Below are positions 28,842-42,932 of a DNA stretch of 64,000 nt, piece after piece (position 1 is the stretch's first letter; the number at the start of each line of letters is the position of its first letter). The notes below the pieces were generated by a model, which was given only the letters and a program-made list of their open reading frames with translations, was not told the origin of the DNA and ran no database searches. The translations under genes were made by a program, and so were the position numbers. Origin of the DNA: an uncultured Syntrophobacterales bacterium (GTDB lineage: Bacteria > Desulfobacterota > Syntrophia > Syntrophales > UBA5619); assembly GCA_903928915.1 (NCBI GenBank), contig CAIYSL010000093.1:1-64000 (forward strand), in the 5' to 3' direction.

Positions 28842-29483
28842 ATGTCCAAGATGCTGGAGATAGGCGCGGCCATCGAAGCCGGCAAGGGCAAGAACGTCCA
28901 GGACCTTATCCAGGCGGCCATCGGCGAGGGTATGAAACCGATGGATGTCTTACAGGGCATGATCGATGCCATGGGGGCGGTTGGCGAAAAATTCAGGACC
29001 GGCGAGATCTATGTGCCGGAAATGCTCATTGCGGCCCGGGCCATGAAGAAGGGGCTGGAGGTGCTGCGGCCGCTCGTGGTGGGCGAAAGCGGCGCCACCG
29101 TCGGCAAGTTCATCGTCGGCACCGTGGCAGGCGACCTGCACGACATCGGCAAGAATCTCGTGGCCATGATGGTCGAGAGCCAGGGGTTCGATGTTATCGA
29201 TCTGGGGGTCGACGTGAAGGCGGAAAAATTCGTCGAAGCGATCAAGGCGAACCCCGATTGCCGGGTGATCGGCATCTCGGTCCTGCTGACCACGACGATG
29301 CCGGCCGTGAAGGACACCCTCAGCGCCCTGGCTGCCGCAGGGGTGAGAAACCAGGTGAAGGTCATGGTCGGCGGGGCGCCCGTCACCCAGGCCTTTGTCG
29401 ACAATATCGGGGCCGACGGTTTTGCGGCCGACGCGGCCACGGCCGCGGGCAAGGCCAAGGAACTGAACAAACGTCTCAATTAG
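28842..29483 (+). CDS. Corrinoid (B12-binding) methyl carrier protein
   Basis: A 213-residue MtaC/MttC-like methyl carrier. The helical cap domain (~1-85) is followed by a Rossmann-type cobalamin domain with the signature DLHDIGKNLV, whose His100 should ligate cobalt in the base-off form, then SVLLTTTM and VGGAPVT, which line the nucleotide tail. The protein would accept a methyl group from a substrate methyltransferase and pass it on. AAGGGAG precedes the ATG; the UroD-type gene follows after 11 bases. Confidence 0.94.
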   Translation: MSKMLEIGAAIEAGKGKNVQDLIQAAIGEGMKPMDVLQGMIDAMGAVGEKFRTGEIYVPEMLIAARAMKKGLEVLRPLVVGESGATVGKFIVGTVAGDLHDIGKNLVAMMVESQGFDVIDLGVDVKAEKFVEAIKANPDCRVIGISVLLTTTMPAVKDTLSALAAAGVRNQVKVMVGGAPVTQAFVDNIGADGFAADAATAAGKAKELNKRLN

Positions 29484-29494
29484 GAGGAACTTCC

Positions 29495-30643
29495 ATGAAC
29501 TCCCGCGAACGAGTGCTGTGCACCCTGAACCACAAGGAACCCGACCGCATTCCCCTGGACCTCGGGTCCGGCCACTGCTGCAAGTTCACCAAGTATTTCT
29601 ACGTCAAGCTGCTGGATTACTTCGGCATCAAGGAAGACAACCTGGAAATCTGCAGCCTGCCCTACCAGGTGGTCTACGCCTCGGACAAGGTGCTCGATCT
29701 GCTCAAGGGTGATGTGCGCAATCCCCGCCTCAAGCCCATCAGGCCCCCCAACCCTTATTCCAAGAAGTGGGAGGATGAGGAGAGCTACTACGCACGGAAC
29801 GAATGGGGGACCCTCTACCGGATGCCCAAGCAGCACGCCCTGTATTTCGACCTCTACGACACGGTCCTGAAGAATTCGGAGAGCCTGGAGGAGGACCAGA
29901 AGTTCGTCTGGCCCGTCCCGGAGAAGTTCGACAGGAACGACCGGAAAGAAATGGAAGACTACCGCAACGCCGGCTTCGCCACCATGATTACCGAAGTCTT
30001 CGGCAACGGTTTTCTCCAGACGGGTCCCCTGGTCTGGGGGTTCGAGAACTGGCTGGCCATGCTCGCGGCCGAGCCCGAGCGGTGCATCCCCTTCATGGAA
30101 AAGCTGCTGGAGAAGAAGATCGAGTACTACGACAACATCTTCGCGGTGTACGGCGGTCTGATCGACACCACCGCCGAGCCCGACGATTTCGGGACCCAGC
30201 GGGGCACCTTCGTGTCGCCGAAGCTGATCCGCGAGATGATGCTGCCCCTGCACAAGAAGCTCAACGCCCACATCAAGTCCAAGCAGGCGATCAAGACCAT
30301 GCTCCACACCTGCGGTTCCGTGTACGCCATCCTGCCGGATATCATCGAGGCGGGCTACGACATCCTCAACCCCGTCCAGATTGCGGCCGCGAACATGGAG
30401 CCCGAGCGGCTCAAGAAGGAGTTCGGCAAGGACATCGTCTTCTGGGGCGGCGGCATCAACACCCAGGCGACCCTGCCCAACGGTACACCCCAACAGGTCC
30501 GGGACGAAACCAAGAGGCTCATCGACGCCTTCGCCCCGGGCGGCGGGTTCGTCTTCTCCACGGTTCACAACGTTCAGGACGATGTGCCCATCGAGAACTT
30601 CATGGCCATGTGGGAGACCTTCCAGGACAATTGTAAATATTGA
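29495..30643 (+). CDS. UroD-family corrinoid methyltransferase
   Basis: A 382-residue protein of the uroporphyrinogen decarboxylase superfamily, starting after TAGGAGG. Placement next to the corrinoid gene marks it as a methyltransferase rather than a haem enzyme. Seen: the UroD opening RERVLCTLNHKEPDRIPLDL, a central LHTCGSVYAILPDIIEAG where HTC can supply zinc ligands, and FWGGGINTQATLPNGTP near the end. It could move the methyl group either from substrate to corrinoid or from corrinoid to tetrahydrofolate; the sequence alone does not decide. No corrinoid-reactivation (RACo-type) gene is in the window. Confidence 0.88.
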   Translation: MNSRERVLCTLNHKEPDRIPLDLGSGHCCKFTKYFYVKLLDYFGIKEDNLEICSLPYQVVYASDKVLDLLKGDVRNPRLKPIRPPNPYSKKWEDEESYYARNEWGTLYRMPKQHALYFDLYDTVLKNSESLEEDQKFVWPVPEKFDRNDRKEMEDYRNAGFATMITEVFGNGFLQTGPLVWGFENWLAMLAAEPERCIPFMEKLLEKKIEYYDNIFAVYGGLIDTTAEPDDFGTQRGTFVSPKLIREMMLPLHKKLNAHIKSKQAIKTMLHTCGSVYAILPDIIEAGYDILNPVQIAAANMEPERLKKEFGKDIVFWGGGINTQATLPNGTPQQVRDETKRLIDAFAPGGGFVFSTVHNVQDDVPIENFMAMWETFQDNCKY

Positions 30644-31314: not shown

Positions 31315-31767
31315 CTACTTGGCGGCCTGGGGCGCCGCCGGCGCAGCAGGTGCGGCCGGGGCTGCCGGGGCCCCCGCCTCCGGCTTCGGGGCCGGGATCC
31401 GGATGGGTATCGGCTTCGTCGGGTCGACCGGGATCTGCACGGGTATATCCGCCTGAATCGGGGCGCTCGGCTGAGGCGCGGTCTGGGGCCCCTTCTGCTG
31501 CTGCGCGGGCCGGCCGGCCCCCTCCATCAGGGAGCTCCCCTTGCGGGAAGCGATGTAGGAGAGGCTGAAGGAGGTCAGCATGAAGATGATGGCGACACCG
31601 GTCGTCATCTTGCCGAGGAAAGTCCCGGGGCCGCTGCTTCCGAAGATGGTCTGGCTCGACCCTCCGAACACGGCCCCCATGTTGGCGCCCTTGCCGGCCT
31701 GCAGCAGGACGACGAGGATCAGGACGATGCAGACAGCCACATGTACGATGGTGATGAGAATGTTCAC
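31315..31767 (-). CDS. secG: Preprotein translocase subunit SecG
   Basis: Auxiliary membrane subunit of the SecYEG export channel. Two helices are clear (ILITIVHVAVCIVLILVVLL and GVAIIFMLTSFSLSYIA) joined by the conserved GKGANMGAVFGGSSQTIFG loop. At 150 residues it is longer than usual because of a Pro/Ala-rich tail from ~residue 85 (repeated PIPIRIPAPK and AAPAAPAAP). Downstream of tpiA by ~110 bases. Confidence 0.95.
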   Translation of the reverse strand: MNILITIVHVAVCIVLILVVLLQAGKGANMGAVFGGSSQTIFGSSGPGTFLGKMTTGVAIIFMLTSFSLSYIASRKGSSLMEGAGRPAQQQKGPQTAPQPSAPIQADIPVQIPVDPTKPIPIRIPAPKPEAGAPAAPAAPAAPAAPQAAK

Positions 31768-31880: not shown

Positions 31881-32630
31881 TCAGTAGCCGATGATCCGGA
31901 CGAAGGAATCGACTTCCAGGCTTGCCCCGCCGACCAGTGCCCCGTCGATGTCCGGCTGGGCCATCAGTTCGGCGATGTTCTTCGGCGTCACGCTGCCGCC
32001 GTACAGGATCGCCAGGTCCGCCGCCCGCTTAGGGCCGTAGAGCCGGGCGATCCACTCCCGGATGGAACGATGCACCTCCTCGGCCTGATCCGGGGTTGCC
32101 GTCTTGCCGGTGCCGATCGCCCACACCGGTTCATAGGCAATAATCAGAGAGCCTATATCATCGGCGGTCAAATTATTCAATCCCTCTTTTAACTGGCCGG
32201 CGACGACCTCTTCCCGGCGTCCCGCCTCCCGCTCGCCGAGCGACTCGCCGACGCAGAAGATCGGCCTCAGCCCGACGCCCAGGGCGGCCAGCAGCTTCCG
32301 GTTGATCCGGTCGTTGCCTTCGCCGAAGAGGGTGCGCCGCTCCGAATGGCCGACGATCACATGGGTGCAGCCCGCTTCGCGGAGCATGGCGCCGGAGATT
32401 TCCCCGGTGTAGGCCCCCTTTTCCGCCTCGTGCAGGTTCTGGGCGGACAAGCGGATGAAGGACCCCCGGACGGCCTCTGCCGCGGCGCCAAGCGCCGTGA
32501 AGGGCGGGGCGACGATCACCTCGCGATCCGGCGCGGTCGGAAAGGCCGACCGGAGCTGGGCGACGAATGCGATTGCCTCGGCAACCGTCTTGTGCATCTT
32601 CCAGTTTCCCGCGATGATGGGCCGGACCAT
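31881..32630 (-). CDS. tpiA: Triosephosphate isomerase
   Basis: Interconverts dihydroxyacetone phosphate and glyceraldehyde 3-phosphate. The 249-residue chain starts MVRPIIAGNWKMHKT (Asn and Lys of the active site), has the catalytic His in VIVGHSERR, the catalytic Glu in AYEPVWAIGTGKTA, and the phosphate loop LYGGSVTP. The ATG at 32630 follows GGGAGGG. It is followed by secG. Normally next to pgk, it is separated from it here by 6.7 kb and has its own promoter. Confidence 0.98.
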   Translation of the reverse strand: MVRPIIAGNWKMHKTVAEAIAFVAQLRSAFPTAPDREVIVAPPFTALGAAAEAVRGSFIRLSAQNLHEAEKGAYTGEISGAMLREAGCTHVIVGHSERRTLFGEGNDRINRKLLAALGVGLRPIFCVGESLGEREAGRREEVVAGQLKEGLNNLTADDIGSLIIAYEPVWAIGTGKTATPDQAEEVHRSIREWIARLYGPKRAADLAILYGGSVTPKNIAELMAQPDIDGALVGGASLEVDSFVRIIGY

Positions 32631-32658
32631 GTGCCCTCCCGGTGAACAGTGATCGCGG

Positions 32659-32687
32659 ATGATAACCAGCCGGCCCGCCTTCGTCAA
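32659..32687 (-). promoter_or_regulatory. Promoter of tpiA
   Basis: On the minus strand TTGACG (32687-32682), 17 bases, TATCAT (32664-32659); predicted start about 20 bases before the tpiA ATG. It is back to back with the promoter at 32708-32736. Confidence 0.65.
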
Positions 32688-32742: not shown

Positions 32743-35700
32743 ATGGATACGACGGAACAGCCGCGGCCGCTGACCGCCCTGGAGATCAACCTGGAACGGA
32801 CCCGGGCGGTGGTGGAGATCCCCGAGCGGTACCGGATTCTCCTCGCCGTGGCCAAGGATCATTACGGGGTGCTGAAGCGCACCGAAGAGATGCTCGTCGA
32901 GCTGAACCATCCCTTCGTGAACTGGGAGTACGTGCTCACCCAGCTGAAGGGCCTTTCGGTCGGGAATTTCTACGATTTCAACGTCCCCGGCGACGGGCTG
33001 CCGGCACTGGCGACGCTGGCCGACATCTATCTGGCCGTCATCTCCTCGGCCCCGGACGAAGAGGTCAGGGACAACGCCATCCGGTACCTGTTCGAATACC
33101 TCAACACCGTCCTCTCCCAGAGCGGCAAGCTGCGGGGGCGAAACGCGGCGCTGTTTCCCCCGCTGTTTCGGTCGCTCGCCGACCTGGCCGCCACGCAGCA
33201 GGACCTGTGGAAGAAGGCCTCCGGTTATCTGAAGGCAACGGCCAGGCTGCTGGCGGATCAGGACCTGCGGATCGACCGGGCCGACCTCGGTCGGCTTCTC
33301 GATACGGTGTTCCGGTCGACGTACCGCTTCTGGCTGACCCAGCCCGATCCTGCCGGATGGTTTTCGCTGCAAGGGGAGACCGACGAGGAGCGCGAGGCCT
33401 ACCAGGGGCTCGTCCGTCCCCTCTCGCACGGCCACCTCCGGGAGCTGCTCGCCCGCATCGACCGGATCGCCGCCCGGGCGAAGGCCGATCCGGCCGGGCG
33501 CGAAGAATACCTGGAGATGCCCGATTACCTGCAGATCGCCAACGGGTATCTCGTCGTCGCCGACGCCCTGGAACAGTCGCCCGCCTTCGCGGGGCACCGG
33601 TATCTGGTGAAGCTCGACTTCCTGTTCAACGTCATGGGCGTCCCGGGCCTTACGGACGTCCACAGCGCGGGCCTGATCGAGATCAACCGGTGTCTGGGGA
33701 AGGTACTGAAAGAGGAGACCCAGGAGAACCTGAACGCATCCGTCCGGAAGATATTCCGCCTGCTGAAGAAGAATGTCTCCGGCCATCGCTTTCAGAGTTC
33801 CCTGATCGACTGCATCACGACCCTGGCCAAGGAGGTGTTCGAGCTGAACAACCACCCGCTCGTCGACACCTTCATCGAGGAGGTCGTGGCCTTCGGGTTT
33901 CAGCATCCCGACGTGCAGGGATCGACCACGGAATGGCAGATCCAGGTGAACCCCGCCCATGTCAAGAACATCCGCGCCTGGCTGGGGATCATCACCCAGA
34001 AGCCGCGCTGGACGAAGAAACTCCTCTCGGCCCTGATCATCAACCTGAAGCTGAAGGGGGTGTTCGTCCGGGATACGGACCTCCTCCAGAAGGAGATCTC
34101 CCGGCTGCTGAACACCGACATCCAGCCGGCGTACAACCTGACCAAGCAGCTCCTCAGGATCCTCCCGATCTTCTTCACCGAGATCGGCGCGGAAGGGGAG
34201 CTCCGGGCGATCTCCACCGCTGTCGACGAGCTGTCGGCCCGGAACGACCGGCTGATCTATTTCCTCAGGAAGCAGTCGCACGTGGAGAGCAACAGCCTCT
34301 TGGTGCCGTTCATCGAGGATATCTTCCGCTACTGGCGCTCCGGGAAGAAGCAGTTCCTGAAGGAGCACCTGCCGGCGGAGGTTTACCGGGAGGTCAAGCC
34401 GGCAGGGGAGTATTTCACCGGCCTCCACCGGCTGTTCGGCCCCGTATTCGTGAAGATCGACGGCGATGTCCGGCAGCTCCTCGAATGGGATGAGGCGCGG
34501 ATCGCATCCGAGATCGCGGCCGTCGACGGCGTCGCCGTCCGGGAGAAGGAGCGCGCCGGGCTGATGATCCGGTTCTACCAGCTCATCTTCAAGAAATATT
34601 TCCATCAGCACATCGACATCCTCAGAGACCTCGAGTCGTCGAACCTCGTCGACCCCAAGCGGATCCGTGCCCTCGGCCGGGCGCTGGACAGGAAGGACCA
34701 TGAGCGGAGCCTGGCGGTCATCCTCGAGATGATCGCCTCGCTGAAGGAGAAGATCCTCTCCCCCGTGAAGACCGACGCGGTGGAGAACATCTACTACAAG
34801 CGGCATATCGCCGCCGGCATCCCCTCGATGTACGGGACCTACCGGGAGGAGAAGTTCGAGGCCATGGGGCTGTCGCTCCGTCTGGAGAGCTTCGCCACGA
34901 CGCTGTTCGAGAAGCTGGTGGAATCCCTGAACCTCAAGTTCATCACCAAGAGCACGTTGCTTCGGATCCACAAGTATCTCTGGCTGTACGTGAAGGCCCT
35001 CGACCTGGAGGGGCTGGCGACGGAAGGGCTGGTGGCGAAGCTGAAGTACCTCACGAGCGCCCTGCAGATCCGGCAGTTTTCGATCGACCAGTACATCGAC
35101 ATCTTCCAGTTCATCGCCAAGGGGATCCAGGATATCACCCGCGACTATTACGTCGATGTCCATCGCGCCAACCTGCCGGTGATCATCGGCCAGCTCCTCT
35201 GCCGCGACGGGGGCTGGGAGGGCAGGGGGATCGCCCGGGAGGACCAGGAGACCTTCTATCAGCACTCGGAGCAGTTCATCCGTTCCGTCATCGCCTCCGC
35301 CTTCGGGCTGCAGGTGCTGGACAATTTCGTCAACGCCGTGATCCGGACGCTGGGCGCGGAACTGGAAAAATTCAAGGACAACAAAGAGATCCTGAATCTC
35401 GTGATGGCCTACATCCCGGAGCTGGCCGTCACGACCCTGTACAAGAAGAACCGGGAGACGGACAATCAGATCCTGATCGGCAACAAGGCCTACTTCCTCA
35501 AGCAGCTGCGGTCGTTCGGCCTGCCCGTTCCGCCGGGGTTCGTGATCACCACCGAGGTGTTCCGGGGCTACGAGGGGGTGAAGGGGTACCAGTACATCTT
35601 CGAAGACCTGCAGCAGCGGATCAACCGGGAGCTCCGGGAACTGGAACGGATCACGAAGAAGACCTTCGGCGACCCCAAGAACCCGCTGATCCTTTCCGTC

Positions 35701-36957
35701 CGGAGCGGCGCCACCATATCGCTGCCGGGGATGATGAGCTCGTTTCTGAACGTGGGGATCAACGAGACGATCGCCAAAGGGCTCGCCCGGAAGAACGACC
35801 ACCGCTGGGCGGCGTGGGACTCCTACCGGCGGTTCCTGCAGACCTGGGGGATGTTCCAGGGGCTGGAGCGGAACTTCTTCGATCAGATCATGATCAACTA
35901 CAAGAGCCGCTACACGGTGGAGAAGAAGTATCAGTTCAAGCCGGATCAGATGCGGCAGCTGGCGCTTGCCTACCGGGAGTCGATGAAGGAGCGGGGTATC
36001 GAGATTACCGACGATCCCCATGAGCAGCTCCAGCACGCCATCCAGGAGGTGTTCGCCTCCTGGAATTCAGAGCAGGCGCGGATCTACCGCCATCAGATGC
36101 ATCTCTCCGACGAGTGGGGCACCGCCGTCATCGTCCAGGCGATGGTGTTCGGCAACCTCCACGAGAATTCCGGCTCCGGGGTGATCCTGACCCGGGACCC
36201 GCGCGGCTCGTCGCAGCAGGTGGCCCCCTACGGGGATTTCATCTTCTGCGTCCAGGGGGACGACATCGTCTCCGGCCTCGTGGCGACCTATCCGATTTCG
36301 GAAAAGCAGCGGATCGCCGAACAGCGGGATTCGCCCATATCGCTGGAGATGCGGTTTCCGGAGATCTACCACGAGCTGGTCAAGACGGGCGAGTTCCTCG
36401 TGTACGAGAAGGGGTTCAACCACCAGGAGGTCGAGTTCACCTTCGAGAACGCCACGAAGAAGGGGCTCTACATCCTCCAGACCCGGGACATGGTCCAGCG
36501 GGAGACGCAGAAGGTGCGGAGCTTCGTCGGCGACGGGGCGCTCGAACGGTCGTTTCTGGGGATGGGGATCGGGGTGAGCGGCGGGGCCCTGGCGGGCCGG
36601 GCGGTGTATTCGGAGGAGGAGATCGCCCGGTTCCGGGATGAGGAGCCCGAAACCCCGCTGATCCTGATCCGTCCCGACACGGTCCCCGACGACGTGGGGA
36701 TCATCCTGAAGGTGGACGGGATCCTGACGGCGCGCGGCGGCGGCACCTCCCACGCGGCGGTGACGATCCCGCAGCTGAACAAGGTCGGCGTCGTGGGGTT
36801 CAACAAGCTCCACGTCTACGAATCGGACGGGTACAGCCGCGTCGACGGGAGCACGATCCGGGGGGGGGATTTCATCAGCATCGACGGCTGGAGCGGGGCC
36901 GTGTACGCGGGAAAGCACAGGATCAGCGCCGACGAATCCTACAAGATCATCTGCTAG
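32743..36957 (+). CDS. Large helical domain fused to PPDK-type ATP-grasp and phospho-His domains
   Basis: A 1404-residue protein. Residues 1-~905 form a mainly helical region with no motif I recognise. From ~913 the chain follows pyruvate phosphate dikinase: GNKAYFLKQLRSFGLPVPPG, ILSVRSGATISLPGMM, GTAVIVQAMVFGN with GVILTRDPRG (ATP-grasp nucleotide site), and LYILQTRDMV. A swivelling domain then carries the phosphorylated-histidine motif ILTARGGGTSHAAV (His ~1337). The chain stops there: the PEP/pyruvate-binding TIM barrel of PPDK and PEP synthase is missing. It could therefore phosphorylate its own His from ATP and pass phosphate to another acceptor, perhaps the N-terminal part or a partner protein. 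Start chosen at 32743; frame is open upstream. It lies on the opposite strand inside the glycolytic gene cluster. Confidence 0.85.
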   Translation: MDTTEQPRPLTALEINLERTRAVVEIPERYRILLAVAKDHYGVLKRTEEMLVELNHPFVNWEYVLTQLKGLSVGNFYDFNVPGDGLPALATLADIYLAVISSAPDEEVRDNAIRYLFEYLNTVLSQSGKLRGRNAALFPPLFRSLADLAATQQDLWKKASGYLKATARLLADQDLRIDRADLGRLLDTVFRSTYRFWLTQPDPAGWFSLQGETDEEREAYQGLVRPLSHGHLRELLARIDRIAARAKADPAGREEYLEMPDYLQIANGYLVVADALEQSPAFAGHRYLVKLDFLFNVMGVPGLTDVHSAGLIEINRCLGKVLKEETQENLNASVRKIFRLLKKNVSGHRFQSSLIDCITTLAKEVFELNNHPLVDTFIEEVVAFGFQHPDVQGSTTEWQIQVNPAHVKNIRAWLGIITQKPRWTKKLLSALIINLKLKGVFVRDTDLLQKEISRLLNTDIQPAYNLTKQLLRILPIFFTEIGAEGELRAISTAVDELSARNDRLIYFLRKQSHVESNSLLVPFIEDIFRYWRSGKKQFLKEHLPAEVYREVKPAGEYFTGLHRLFGPVFVKIDGDVRQLLEWDEARIASEIAAVDGVAVREKERAGLMIRFYQLIFKKYFHQHIDILRDLESSNLVDPKRIRALGRALDRKDHERSLAVILEMIASLKEKILSPVKTDAVENIYYKRHIAAGIPSMYGTYREEKFEAMGLSLRLESFATTLFEKLVESLNLKFITKSTLLRIHKYLWLYVKALDLEGLATEGLVAKLKYLTSALQIRQFSIDQYIDIFQFIAKGIQDITRDYYVDVHRANLPVIIGQLLCRDGGWEGRGIAREDQETFYQHSEQFIRSVIASAFGLQVLDNFVNAVIRTLGAELEKFKDNKEILNLVMAYIPELAVTTLYKKNRETDNQILIGNKAYFLKQLRSFGLPVPPGFVITTEVFRGYEGVKGYQYIFEDLQQRINRELRELERITKKTFGDPKNPLILSVRSGATISLPGMMSSFLNVGINETIAKGLARKNDHRWAAWDSYRRFLQTWGMFQGLERNFFDQIMINYKSRYTVEKKYQFKPDQMRQLALAYRESMKERGIEITDDPHEQLQHAIQEVFASWNSEQARIYRHQMHLSDEWGTAVIVQAMVFGNLHENSGSGVILTRDPRGSSQQVAPYGDFIFCVQGDDIVSGLVATYPISEKQRIAEQRDSPISLEMRFPEIYHELVKTGEFLVYEKGFNHQEVEFTFENATKKGLYILQTRDMVQRETQKVRSFVGDGALERSFLGMGIGVSGGALAGRAVYSEEEIARFRDEEPETPLILIRPDTVPDDVGIILKVDGILTARGGGTSHAAVTIPQLNKVGVVGFNKLHVYESDGYSRVDGSTIRGGDFISIDGWSGAVYAGKHRISADESYKIIC

Positions 36958-36999: not shown

Positions 37000-37029
37000 T
37001 TGACAGGCGAGACCCGTTCCGCTCATAGT
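37000..37029 (+). promoter_or_regulatory. Promoter of the small lipoprotein gene
   Basis: TTGACA at 37000-37005, 18 bases, CATAGT at 37024-37029, giving a leader of about 60 bases. Confidence 0.5.
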
Positions 37030-37098
37030 CAGTCCGCTGAAGAGCCACTTCCGATCACTCATTCATCGATGGTTCTGCGGGGCAGGGGAGGTAATCGT

Positions 37099-37608
37099 AT
37101 GGCGTCAAGCGGGCAAAGGTTCTGCGCGATTCTCTTGATGGTTGTCTTATGCTGCGGCTGCTCAAATTCCTCCGGGAATGCGGGAAATGAAGCGGCTGTC
37201 GGTTTCCAGGTCACTACCTCCTACTTTGTCAAGAATACGTACCGCGGAGAAACGAATCCCTCGTACCTTGTGATTCGCAGTTCTGCGTCCTTTGATTCGG
37301 TATTCGGCGTTGCCGCAGTCGCAAATGTGGACCCGGCGCGGTTGATCACTGAAGAAAAAATGAAGACGGGCTTTGTTGTGTCCATCATCTACCAGGGGAA
37401 CGACATTCATACCCTCGCTATTGATAAGATTGTCCTCATGGATGATCAATTACAGGTTCATTATACCTCGGAAGTGACTACCCCCAATGCCAGTTGGACC
37501 TGCAACTGTCATGTTACCGCACTGATCGATAAGAGTAATTTCAGCACGATTCGCTTCTTCGAGAACGGGAAGCCGCTTCCCAATGCCGTGGTGAAAGAAT
37601 TGCCGTGA
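37099..37608 (+). CDS. Hypothetical lipoprotein of lower GC content
   Basis: A 169-residue exported protein. The signal ends in VVLCCGCSNSSG, a lipobox. The mature part is beta-rich, with FVKNTYRGETNPSYLVI, FDSVFGVAAVANVDP, and a WTCNCHVTALIDKS segment, ending FENGKPLPNAVVKELP. The VFGVAA and protease-inhibitor-like look is suggestive only; I do not recognise the family. GGGGAGG lies ahead of the ATG. Codon use is clearly more AT-rich than the neighbours, hinting at acquisition by transfer. It has its own promoter. Confidence 0.7.
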   Translation: MASSGQRFCAILLMVVLCCGCSNSSGNAGNEAAVGFQVTTSYFVKNTYRGETNPSYLVIRSSASFDSVFGVAAVANVDPARLITEEKMKTGFVVSIIYQGNDIHTLAIDKIVLMDDQLQVHYTSEVTTPNASWTCNCHVTALIDKSNFSTIRFFENGKPLPNAVVKELP

Positions 37609-37997: not shown

Positions 37998-39278
37998 CTA
38001 CCGGAACAGACTCTTGTGGATGTACACCGTCAGGTCGCCGAGCCGGTTGGTGTAGCTGCCGAATTCGTTGTCGTACCAGCCGAAGATCTTGGCGTGGACC
38101 ACGGGGATCCGCAGGACCGACTGCCCCAGGCTCCTGAGGCACGACTCGGGCAGGTCGGGGACGCGGGAGAGGTCGACCTCGATGAAAGCGGTGCGGATGT
38201 GGTTGAACTGCCCTTCGATCACCACTGCCGCGTTTGTCCCGATCAGGTCGGCGGAGACGTTCTGCTCCTCCGAGAACAGGACCAGGCGTTCGGGGTCGTT
38301 TTCCGATGCCTTCCGGTAGATTGTGTTGATCGTCTCCGCGGTCAGCGGGAGGGGCTTGCCGTCCCGGCCGGTGCGGCACTGGAAGGTGGCGTTCAGGACG
38401 ATCAGCGACTCCGTGCTGGTCGGCACCCGGATCGAGTCCGCCATGAACCCGATGTTCTTCACCTCCGGGATGACCTGGCCGAGCGCCTCCGCCGCGTTGG
38501 TGGAGGTGAGGATGATGTTGTTCAGGGTGCTGCGGTTCTTGCGGAGGTCCTTCTCCCCGGACTTGGGCGTCTTGTCGAGGATGCTCTGCGAGTTGGTCAC
38601 CGCGTGGACCGTGGACATGGACGCCGTCAGGATCTTCCCGGTGGCTTCGCACTCGAGGAGCGGCTTCACCATGTGCGCCAGCCCCGTGGTGGTGCAGGAG
38701 GCCGCGGAGACGACCTGGTGTTTGCGGTAGTCGAAGGCGGTGTGGTTGATCCCGTAGATCAGGGTCACCGCCTCTGCGGGTGCGGACAGGGCCTTGTTCT
38801 TGATCTTGAACGCCGCGGAGTTGATCGTGACCCGGGCGCCGCCGGCGAGGTGGCCCCTGATCGAGCCGCCCTTGTCGTCGGCGGCCACGGTGGGGTCGGA
38901 AAATTTGCCGGTGCACTCAACCACCACATCCACCCCGCGGGTGCGCCAGCCGATCTCCGCGGGGTTCCGCGCCTCGCGCAGCACGGTCACGGGGATTCCG
39001 TCGATCAGGAGCGAGCCCTTCTCTTCATCGACGACCTGGATCAGCCGCCGGGCGTTGACGCCGTACAGGAACCGGTGGAGCGATCCGTAGGTGCTGTCCT
39101 TCTCGATCAGTTGGGCGATTGCGTCGAGCCCGCTGCCGACCCCCCTGCCGACGTTGACGACGATCTCCTGGAAATACTTCCGGCCGATATGGTGCCAGAG
39201 GGTCAGCTTCCCGATCCTGCCCAGGCTGTTGATGCCGAGAACCGGTTTTCGGTTTTCAAAGACCTCGATCTTAGCCAT
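37998..39278 (-). CDS. Long divergent glyceraldehyde-3-phosphate dehydrogenase homologue
   Basis: A 426-residue GAPDH relative, about 90 residues longer than GapA. It keeps the nucleotide motif GINSLGRIG, the catalytic Cys195 in SAASCTTTGLAH (standard enzymes have SCTTNCLAP), the catalytic His225 in STVHAVTNSQ, the phosphate-binding RVPTSTESL and the closing WYDNEFGSYTNRLGDL. Extra residues are mostly before the active-site Cys and near ~300-330. The key pair is intact, so dehydrogenase activity is plausible, with changed cofactor, substrate or regulation. AAGGAGG precedes the ATG; it lies 20 bases after pgk in the same operon. Confidence 0.88.
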   Translation of the reverse strand: MAKIEVFENRKPVLGINSLGRIGKLTLWHHIGRKYFQEIVVNVGRGVGSGLDAIAQLIEKDSTYGSLHRFLYGVNARRLIQVVDEEKGSLLIDGIPVTVLREARNPAEIGWRTRGVDVVVECTGKFSDPTVAADDKGGSIRGHLAGGARVTINSAAFKIKNKALSAPAEAVTLIYGINHTAFDYRKHQVVSAASCTTTGLAHMVKPLLECEATGKILTASMSTVHAVTNSQSILDKTPKSGEKDLRKNRSTLNNIILTSTNAAEALGQVIPEVKNIGFMADSIRVPTSTESLIVLNATFQCRTGRDGKPLPLTAETINTIYRKASENDPERLVLFSEEQNVSADLIGTNAAVVIEGQFNHIRTAFIEVDLSRVPDLPESCLRSLGQSVLRIPVVHAKIFGWYDNEFGSYTNRLGDLTVYIHKSLFR

Positions 39279-39298: not shown

Positions 39299-40489
39299 TC
39301 ACCGCTCCTGCAGTATCGCGATCCCGGGGAGCGCACGACCCTCCAGGTATTCGAGCGAGGCGCCGCCGCCGGTGGAGATGTGGGTGATCTTTTCTGCGAC
39401 CCCGGCCTTCTCCACTGCCAGGGCGCTGTCCCCGCCGCCCACGATCGTCACGGCGGACGAAGCGGCCAGGGCCCGGGCGATCTCGTTCGTCCCCCGGTCG
39501 AAGGGCGGCGTCTCGAACACCCCCAGCGGCCCGTTCCAGATGATCGTTTGGGAAGCGGCGATCGCCTCGGCGAACAGGGCGATTGATGCGGGGCCTACGT
39601 CGGCGCCGATCATCTCCGGCGGGATCGAGTCGATCGGGACGACCCGGGAGGCGGCGCCGGCGGTGAGCTCGGCGGTGACCACCGCATCGACCGGCGTGAG
39701 GAGCTTCAGGTGGGGCATCGCCATAAGCTCGCGCCAGATCCCGCCTGCCTGGGCGAGAAACTTCTGCTCGACGAGCGACTTGCCCACCTCGCCCCCTTGC
39801 GCCTTCAGGAAGGTGAAGATCATTCCGCCGCCGATGATCAGCGTGTCCACCCTCCGGGCGAGGTTCCCGATCACGGTGATCTTCGTCGACACCTTGGCCC
39901 CGCCGATGATCGCCGTGAACGGCCGCCGGGGGGCGTCGAGCGCCTTTCCCATGATCTCCAGCTCCCGGGCGATCAGAAACCCGCACACCCCGGGCAGGAT
40001 GCGGGCGACCCCCTCGGTGGAGGCGTGGGCCCGATGCGCCGTGCCGAAGGCGTCGTTGACGTACACGTCGGCCAGGGCGGCCAGTTCGGCCGCGAAGCCC
40101 GGGTCGTTCTCCTCTTCCTCCTTGTGGAAGCGCACGTTCTCGAGCATCAGGACCTCGCCGCCCTGCATCGCTGCGACCAGGGCCGCCACCTCCGGGCCGA
40201 CGCAGTCGCCGGCCTTGCGGACCTCCTGCCCGAGGAGCCCCTCCAGCCGTTTCGCCACCGGGTCCATCCGCAACCCCGGGGTGACCCCTTCCGGCCTTCC
40301 CAGGTGCGAGACGAGCAGCACCCGGGCCTTCCGCTCGGTCAGGTACCGGATCGTGGGCAGGGCCGCGGTGATCCGCATGTCGTCCTTGACGTTCCCCTGC
40401 TTGTCCAGCGGGACGTTGAAGTCGACCCGGACGAGGACCCGCTTGCCTCTGAGCTGGGCATCCGGCAGATCCGAAATGCTTTTTTTCAT
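39299..40489 (-). CDS. pgk: Phosphoglycerate kinase
   Basis: Transfers phosphate between 1,3-bisphosphoglycerate and ADP. The 396-residue chain has the substrate-binding RVDFNVPLDKQGNV and SHLGRPEG, the hinge MILTV-type region GGAKVSTKITVIGNL, and the nucleotide end GGGDSALAVEKAG and STGGGASLEYLEG. It lies between gapA and the long GAPDH gene. Confidence 0.98.
   Translation of the reverse strand: MKKSISDLPDAQLRGKRVLVRVDFNVPLDKQGNVKDDMRITAALPTIRYLTERKARVLLVSHLGRPEGVTPGLRMDPVAKRLEGLLGQEVRKAGDCVGPEVAALVAAMQGGEVLMLENVRFHKEEEENDPGFAAELAALADVYVNDAFGTAHRAHASTEGVARILPGVCGFLIARELEIMGKALDAPRRPFTAIIGGAKVSTKITVIGNLARRVDTLIIGGGMIFTFLKAQGGEVGKSLVEQKFLAQAGGIWRELMAMPHLKLLTPVDAVVTAELTAGAASRVVPIDSIPPEMIGADVGPASIALFAEAIAASQTIIWNGPLGVFETPPFDRGTNEIARALAASSAVTIVGGGDSALAVEKAGVAEKITHISTGGGASLEYLEGRALPGIAILQER

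Positions 40490-40687: not shown

Positions 40688-42932
<2,245 letters not shown>

Follow-up and report, generated by a model that had tools for sequence, protein, structure and literature searches.

A reading frame that lies inside a glycolytic gene cluster and encodes a pyruvate phosphate dikinase (PPDK)-type enzyme lacking the phosphoenolpyruvate (PEP)/pyruvate barrel raises the question of what such a phosphotransferase acts on. The frame, here called P, occupies 32743..36957 on the forward (+) strand of the window, i.e., the whole analyzed stretch of 64,000 nucleotides (positions 1 to 64,000 of contig CAIYSL010000093.1, assembly GCA_903928915.1) from an uncultured Syntrophobacterales bacterium. 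P consists of 1404 codons free of internal stops, and its assignment is based on the open reading frame (ORF) and its translation, on domain matches, and on the full length being kept in relatives. The sequence comparisons place P in a large conserved family, whose members are likely to be active dikinases functionally coupled to a divergent glyceraldehyde-3-phosphate dehydrogenase (GAPDH), termed gapDiv. The trunk of glycolysis counts as one of the best-understood routes in metabolism, yet about 30% of the sampled genomes of this phylum of anaerobes carry P, which is inherited almost strictly with the second GAPDH. P is a large uncharacterized phosphotransferase often found within a gap-pgk-tpi cluster, and its partner is the sole GAPDH in some genomes. 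The pair suggests a step, or a form of control, in central metabolism that has yet to be described; searches of the open-access literature returned no description of it, which does not preclude one elsewhere.

The PPDK-type part of P (residues 893–1393) is located at the C-terminus and contains two domains. The ATP-grasp domain (residues 893–1253; 35419..36501, +) was identified from Pfam, phmmer, conserved columns and VIA-align. It is followed by the swivelling phospho-histidine domain (residues 1264–1393; 36532..36921, +), assigned by Pfam, phmmer and a match to PDB 2fm4 (Z 16.1, root-mean-square deviation (RMSD) 2.4 over 128 residues). Pfam matches are restricted to residues 955–1384 (PPDK_N, E 2.7e-28; PEP-utilizers, E 5.7e-12), and phmmer aligned residues 909–1391 with residues 15–508 of a structurally solved PPDK (E 7e-71). 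A second predicted model, covering residues 380–1404 and built from 64 diverse sequences, has a predicted local distance difference test (pLDDT) value of 88.4. Its residues 893–1404 could be superimposed by VIA-align on residues 2–523 of PPDK 1kbl with a Z of 39.7 and an RMSD of 3.0 Å over 485 residues, a clearly better fit than to rifampin phosphotransferase (Z of 25.8) or PEP synthase (Z of 20.2). The preliminary description of this locus, made from the sequence alone, had proposed exactly this pair of PPDK domains with an intact GGGTSHAAV motif, and the Pfam, phmmer and structural matches bear it out. Both 1kbl and 1dik fit closely over the two domains, and the plant structures and 2r82 give RMSD values of 9–14 Å. 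In PPDK structures of the 1dik type the histidine domain is, we take it, placed away from the ATP site; the model of P thus seems to show an acceptor-side position of this domain.

The catalytic residues are conserved as well. According to the phmmer alignment and conserved columns, Lys22, Arg92, Arg135, Asp280, Glu323, Gln335, Arg337 and His455 of PPDK correspond to Lys915, Arg987, Arg1030, Asp1174, Glu1231, Gln1246, Arg1248 and His1337 of P, and Asp321 is replaced by a glutamate (Glu1229). His1337 (codon 36751–36753) is the histidine of the GGGTSHAAV motif. These equivalents, including His1337, are near-invariant across 75 diverse members of the family, and the histidine is retained even in distant relatives. 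This pattern bears on the idea that P is an inactive scaffold which has retained the dikinase fold and only organizes glycolytic enzymes. Its solenoid fold, described below, and its association with glycolytic genes would suit such a function, but ATP-site residues and His1337 that stay near-invariant down to 35% overall identity, and are largely kept at 25–27%, make a scaffold very improbable.

No PEP/pyruvate barrel was found by the Pfam search of the chain, of which only 14 residues remain after position 1390. In 76 relatives the tail beyond the equivalent of that residue is at most 35 residues long. Since the chain ends after the histidine domain in all of these, the absence of the barrel, which had been noticed from the window alone, characterizes the family as a whole; a truncated or broken PPDK is ruled out by the same equal chain ends.

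The remainder of the chain had been described as an unmatched helical part of some 900 residues. Its helical nature and its lack of any known family hold; its length is closer to 890 residues, as the ATP-grasp domain begins at about residue 893. An AlphaFold2 model of residues 1–905 (43 sequences; mean pLDDT 80.7) is all-helical except for a single β-hairpin, which rules out a TIM barrel hidden in this part, the fold that had been suggested as the one to look for. Two regions can be distinguished. Residues 1–483 (32743..34191, +) form an α-solenoid-like N-terminal region, least conserved up to about residue 350 (AlphaFold2 model m85af691c7069, helical-repeat matches and conservation profile). 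Residues 484–892 (34192..35418, +) form a second helical region, which, with conserved residues starting from about 398, is proposed to be an acceptor- or partner-binding module (model m85af691c7069 and conservation). The β-hairpin (residues 680–701; 34780..34845, +), assigned by DSSP on both models and by its near-invariance, belongs to this second region and carries the motif KRHIAAGIPSMYGTY, with the invariant pattern KRH..IPSMYG.

Conserved blocks of the profile (401–550 and 651–800) fall in the second region or at its edge. In the N-terminal half of P, 89 positions are near-invariant and are densest at 398–531 and 681–715; polar or aromatic residues occupy 54 of the 89. Near-invariant polar residues of the module include His406, Asp444, Asp446, Arg488, Glu496, Arg500, Arg509, Lys510, His513, Lys618, Lys686, Arg687, His688, Tyr700, Glu702 and Lys704. 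To judge from the alignment, this pattern looks like that of a ligand-binding or catalytic site. For residues 1–890, sequence searches of Pfam, NCBIfam and the PDB, the last also with a profile, returned nothing with a useful E-value. Foldseek and VIA-align retrieved for the helical part only generic helical-repeat proteins, such as karyopherins and designed repeats; their RMSD values are large, and these matches are not taken as homology. Neither program matched the helical part to the RIF-binding domain of rifampin phosphotransferase (RPH) or to other acceptor folds, a result that does not imply their exclusion. We regard the helical module of P as one not previously seen among the small-molecule dikinases.

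P and PPDK (TIGR01828) have the ATP-grasp and swivelling phospho-histidine domains in the same order with matched catalytic residues, but P lacks the PEP/pyruvate TIM barrel, has about 890 extra N-terminal residues, and scores 361.7 bits against the equivalog model, below the NCBIfam cut-off of 843.45. The genome of the window also holds a separate PPDK-like gene (G000 C68:99287-100849; L002, L003; a frame of 984 residues), which is 37% identical to P over residues 906–1247. RPH, which phosphorylates the C21 hydroxyl of rifampin, has the order ATP-grasp, acceptor domain, histidine domain (PMC4844700). It resembles P in having both catalytic domains, with the histidine domain at the C-terminus, and its acceptor is not pyruvate (PMC4844700). 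In P, however, the helical module comes first and the ATP-grasp domain (893–1253) is directly followed by the histidine domain (1264–1393); the score of P against RIF_Ptrans_rph is 38.6 bits, compared with a cut-off of 999. Phenolics are the substrates of HpeHI, CreHI and the phenylphosphate synthase PpsAB, which are dikinases made of two components (PMC12167813). Like P they are phospho-histidine dikinases, and they possess a dedicated acceptor domain of their own (PMC12167813), but their ATP domain and acceptor/histidine domain reside on two subunits, whereas P and its relatives are single chains; P also differs in its acceptor part and is partnered by a GAPDH. P is neither a PPDK, as the barrel is absent and the score is below cut-off, nor an RPH.

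The family is widespread in the phylum. A scan of species genomes yielded 56 loci related to P, mainly from Syntrophales and Syntrophorhabdales, mostly full-length and of equal architecture, and included one Riflebacteria metagenome-assembled genome (MAG) with a homolog at 47% identity. A long match to P is present in 20 of 100 genomes of the window's order, and in a phylum-wide sample of 395 genomes a profile of its N-terminal part found matches in 117 (about 30%). Distant relatives were found in G400 (L125:6861-13140) and G470 (L126:4966-11383), with 25–27% identity and frames of 1489 and 1549 residues. They keep most ATP-site residues and the histidine, have lost the KRH/IPSMYG motif, and are followed by a gene for a sigma-54 activator that contains GAF and Fis domains. 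They may form a separate branch whose acceptor is a different one or whose function is regulatory; that gene may be a hint of the latter. Two further copies of P are split between two frames. In the single-contig genome G163 (L153, C1:682400-688800), the junction lies near 684671 by an A-rich run; a sequencing slip is the probable cause, failing which the gene would be split or frameshifted. In G390 (L154, C9:32000-36500), the break near 33653 at a T run is probably a sequencing slip.

Clustering of neighboring genes revealed one constant companion of P, the GAPDH-like gapDiv, which is about 425 residues long. Among the 395 phylum genomes, 114 hold both P and gapDiv, 3 hold P alone, 2 hold gapDiv alone and 276 hold neither (phi 0.97; Fisher p 3e-93, computed without regard to relatedness). 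P stands alone in G210, G400 and G470, the last two being weak matches, and gapDiv in G104 and G175, which are MAGs of 79% and 62% completeness. In the window's order, gapDiv matches are bimodal: 20 genomes lie at 67–82% identity and the others at canonical levels. The former are the genomes with P, except for G072, which has P without gapDiv, and the contig-edge fragments in G091 and G075. Neither protein occurs in G052 and G095, two relatives from the same genus as the window. Nine genomes whose loci in the first scan had no gapDiv nearby were searched, and eight hold it elsewhere. Among these is the Riflebacteria genome, where the two genes are unlinked and each is nearest to Syntrophia-like versions, as expected if the pair moved together. 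The possibility that shared ancestry alone explains the co-occurrence is weakened by the small number of discordant genomes (5 of 395), the joint absence from G052 and G095, and the unlinked Riflebacteria pair. Distances for P and for gapDiv correlate highly (r 0.95), as common descent would lead one to expect, and this figure was not used as evidence.

The genes are also neighbors. Outside the window's order, P and gapDiv are usually adjacent on the same strand, and in 24 of 35 fetched phylum regions gapDiv directly follows P on that strand with −160 to +294 nucleotides between the open frames. In many of these loci gapA, pgk, tpi and secG lie nearby. Several phylum loci have the order gapA, P, gapDiv, pgk, tpi, secG, and others P, gapDiv, gapA, pgk, tpi, secG; convergent P and gapDiv genes are found in the window and in the majority of its closer relatives. 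The link with triose metabolism first suspected from the window has become far stronger through the conserved gapA-P-gapDiv-pgk-tpi order and the near-strict co-occurrence with a second GAPDH. An antibiotic-modifying role, also raised at that stage, fares poorly. P has its ATP-grasp and histidine domains in common with RPH and could in principle modify an antibiotic or xenobiotic in the same way, but the near-strict pairing with a GAPDH, the phylum-wide spread, the location in a gap-pgk-tpi operon of central carbon metabolism and the RIF_Ptrans_rph score far below cut-off render this extremely improbable.

In the window, gapDiv is encoded at 37998..39278 on the reverse (−) strand as a protein of 426 residues (Pfam/NCBIfam, clustering and conservation). 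Cys195, His225, Thr228, Arg249, Thr258, Arg284 and Asn404 are kept in all 68 sequences compared and cover the catalytic and phosphate-binding sites of GAPDH. The protein shares with Type I GAPDH (TIGR01534) the catalytic Cys and His, the phosphate-binding Thr and Arg residues and the nicotinamide-contacting Asn, but it is about 90 residues longer than usual, is about 30% identical to canonical GAPDH (31% to the copy in the window), and with 281.8 bits does not reach the equivalog cut-off of 367.2. In gapDiv another residue takes the place of the usual NAD ribose-binding Asp, and an invariant Gly-Arg stands beside that position, a combination that suggests NADP(H) as the cofactor.

A canonical GAPDH was found in 77 of 80 P-bearing genomes searched. 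In the other three (G127, G163 and G320 of family f49, rated 100% complete), a search for the GAPDH C-terminal family indicates that gapDiv is the only GAPDH, and phosphoglycerate kinase (PGK) is present. Because it is the sole GAPDH there and its functional residues are conserved, gapDiv is probably a working GAPDH. P would be either needed by gapDiv or itself in need of it.

With the observed architecture, conserved ATP-site residues and histidine, and gene partnership as a basis, we infer an activity, a conformational cycle, an acceptor, a cofactor and a direction for the pair. P would be a member of the PPDK/PEP-synthase/rifampin-phosphotransferase superfamily, and its ATP-grasp domain would phosphorylate His1337 from ATP with release of AMP, and of pyrophosphate (PPi) if inorganic phosphate (Pi) is used as in PPDK. 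The histidine domain would then swing across to the N-terminal helical module, which would contain the acceptor site and substitute for the pyruvate barrel. As the obligate partner of gapDiv, P would catalyze ATP + Pi + 3-phosphoglycerate (3PG) <-> AMP + PPi + 1,3-bisphosphoglycerate (1,3BPG), and 1,3BPG would be passed to gapDiv, whose NADP(H)-linked reaction would complete an AMP/PPi-linked alternative to the PGK/GAPDH step. Phosphorylation of 3PG with ATP to give ADP is unfavorable by about 17–19 kJ/mol, while with ATP and Pi to give AMP and PPi it would be near balance and pulled by PPi hydrolysis. If 3PG is indeed the acceptor, a near-balanced reaction of this kind would suit energy-limited anaerobes. 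More generally, if P is a dikinase for a compound of the triose-phosphate pool, lower glycolysis would be tied to AMP and PPi in such organisms. As a whole, the explanation in which P is a dikinase with a new acceptor module, an obligate gapDiv partner and 3PG as its preferred acceptor is possible, though short of probable. The choice of 3PG taken by itself is tentative and somewhat unlikely, and it is rather doubtful that P and gapDiv constitute a third route between 3PG and glyceraldehyde 3-phosphate (GAP), linked to ATP/AMP/PPi instead of ATP/ADP, with P as a swivelling-histidine phosphoglycerate dikinase found widely in this phylum of anaerobes.

Several points weigh against this explanation. 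To our knowledge, no swivelling-histidine dikinase has a carboxylate acceptor. Every genome checked retains PGK, which would make 3PG phosphorylation by P redundant. A solenoid as large as the modeled one is equally typical of protein binding and of small-molecule binding, and the predicted models give no ligand. Phosphofructokinase (PFK) is present in the f49 genomes, and pyruvate kinase in five of six; a one-way gluconeogenic role there is unsupported.

The features of the solenoid and of the pairing also bear on a regulatory role, in which the solenoid binds gapDiv, or its tetramer, and the ATP-grasp and histidine domains, responding to the energy state through ATP, AMP, Pi and PPi, switch gapDiv on, off or in direction. 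Such a regulator would represent a new kind of energy-state control over GAPDH. It would agree with a partnership that stays strict even where the genes are unlinked, with a large helical solenoid similar to protein-binding scaffolds, with the sigma-54/GAF regulator gene adjoining the distant relatives in G400 and G470, and with gapDiv as a possible sole GAPDH alongside a retained PGK. However, the conserved residues at 398–705 look less like a simple surface for binding than like a site for catalysis or a ligand, and known relatives with the dikinase fold act on small molecules (PMC4844700, PMC12167813). We consider regulation unlikely, if well worth bearing in mind.

Those relatives phosphorylate hydroxyl groups, the C21 hydroxyl of rifampin (PMC4844700) and phenols (PMC12167813), and P lies between gap and tpi genes in its operon. 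Both facts would fit an acceptor other than 3PG from the triose or glycerate pool, e.g., glycerate, glyceraldehyde, dihydroxyacetone or a phosphorylated C3/C4 compound, whose product feeds gapDiv. Yet the phosphate-binding residues for GAP and 1,3BPG are retained in gapDiv, as the sole GAPDH of three genomes it should use normal GAP, and no free-triose pathway was seen. This second alternative is likewise an unlikely one with a real chance of being correct.

The remaining genes of the cluster in the window all lie on the reverse (−) strand. Next to gapDiv are pgk (39299..40489; Pfam PGK, E 1.2e-151) and the canonical type I GAPDH gene gapA (40688..41812; TIGR01534, 449.6 bits, cut-off 367.2). 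On the other side, the triosephosphate isomerase gene (31881..32687; Pfam TIM, E 1.3e-95) is divergent from P and is followed by SecG (31315..31767; Pfam SecG, E 6.4e-21). For gapA and the isomerase gene the ORF limits are given, and the likely starts are slightly inside. P and gapDiv are much closer together in most relatives than in the window, where an ORF of 202 residues (37000-37608, +) lies between them; it has a lipoprotein-like signal and is unmatched in Pfam. At 28842-30643 (+), a corrinoid-protein-like ORF (28842-29483) is followed by a UroD/methyltransferase-like ORF, both recognized by eye only.

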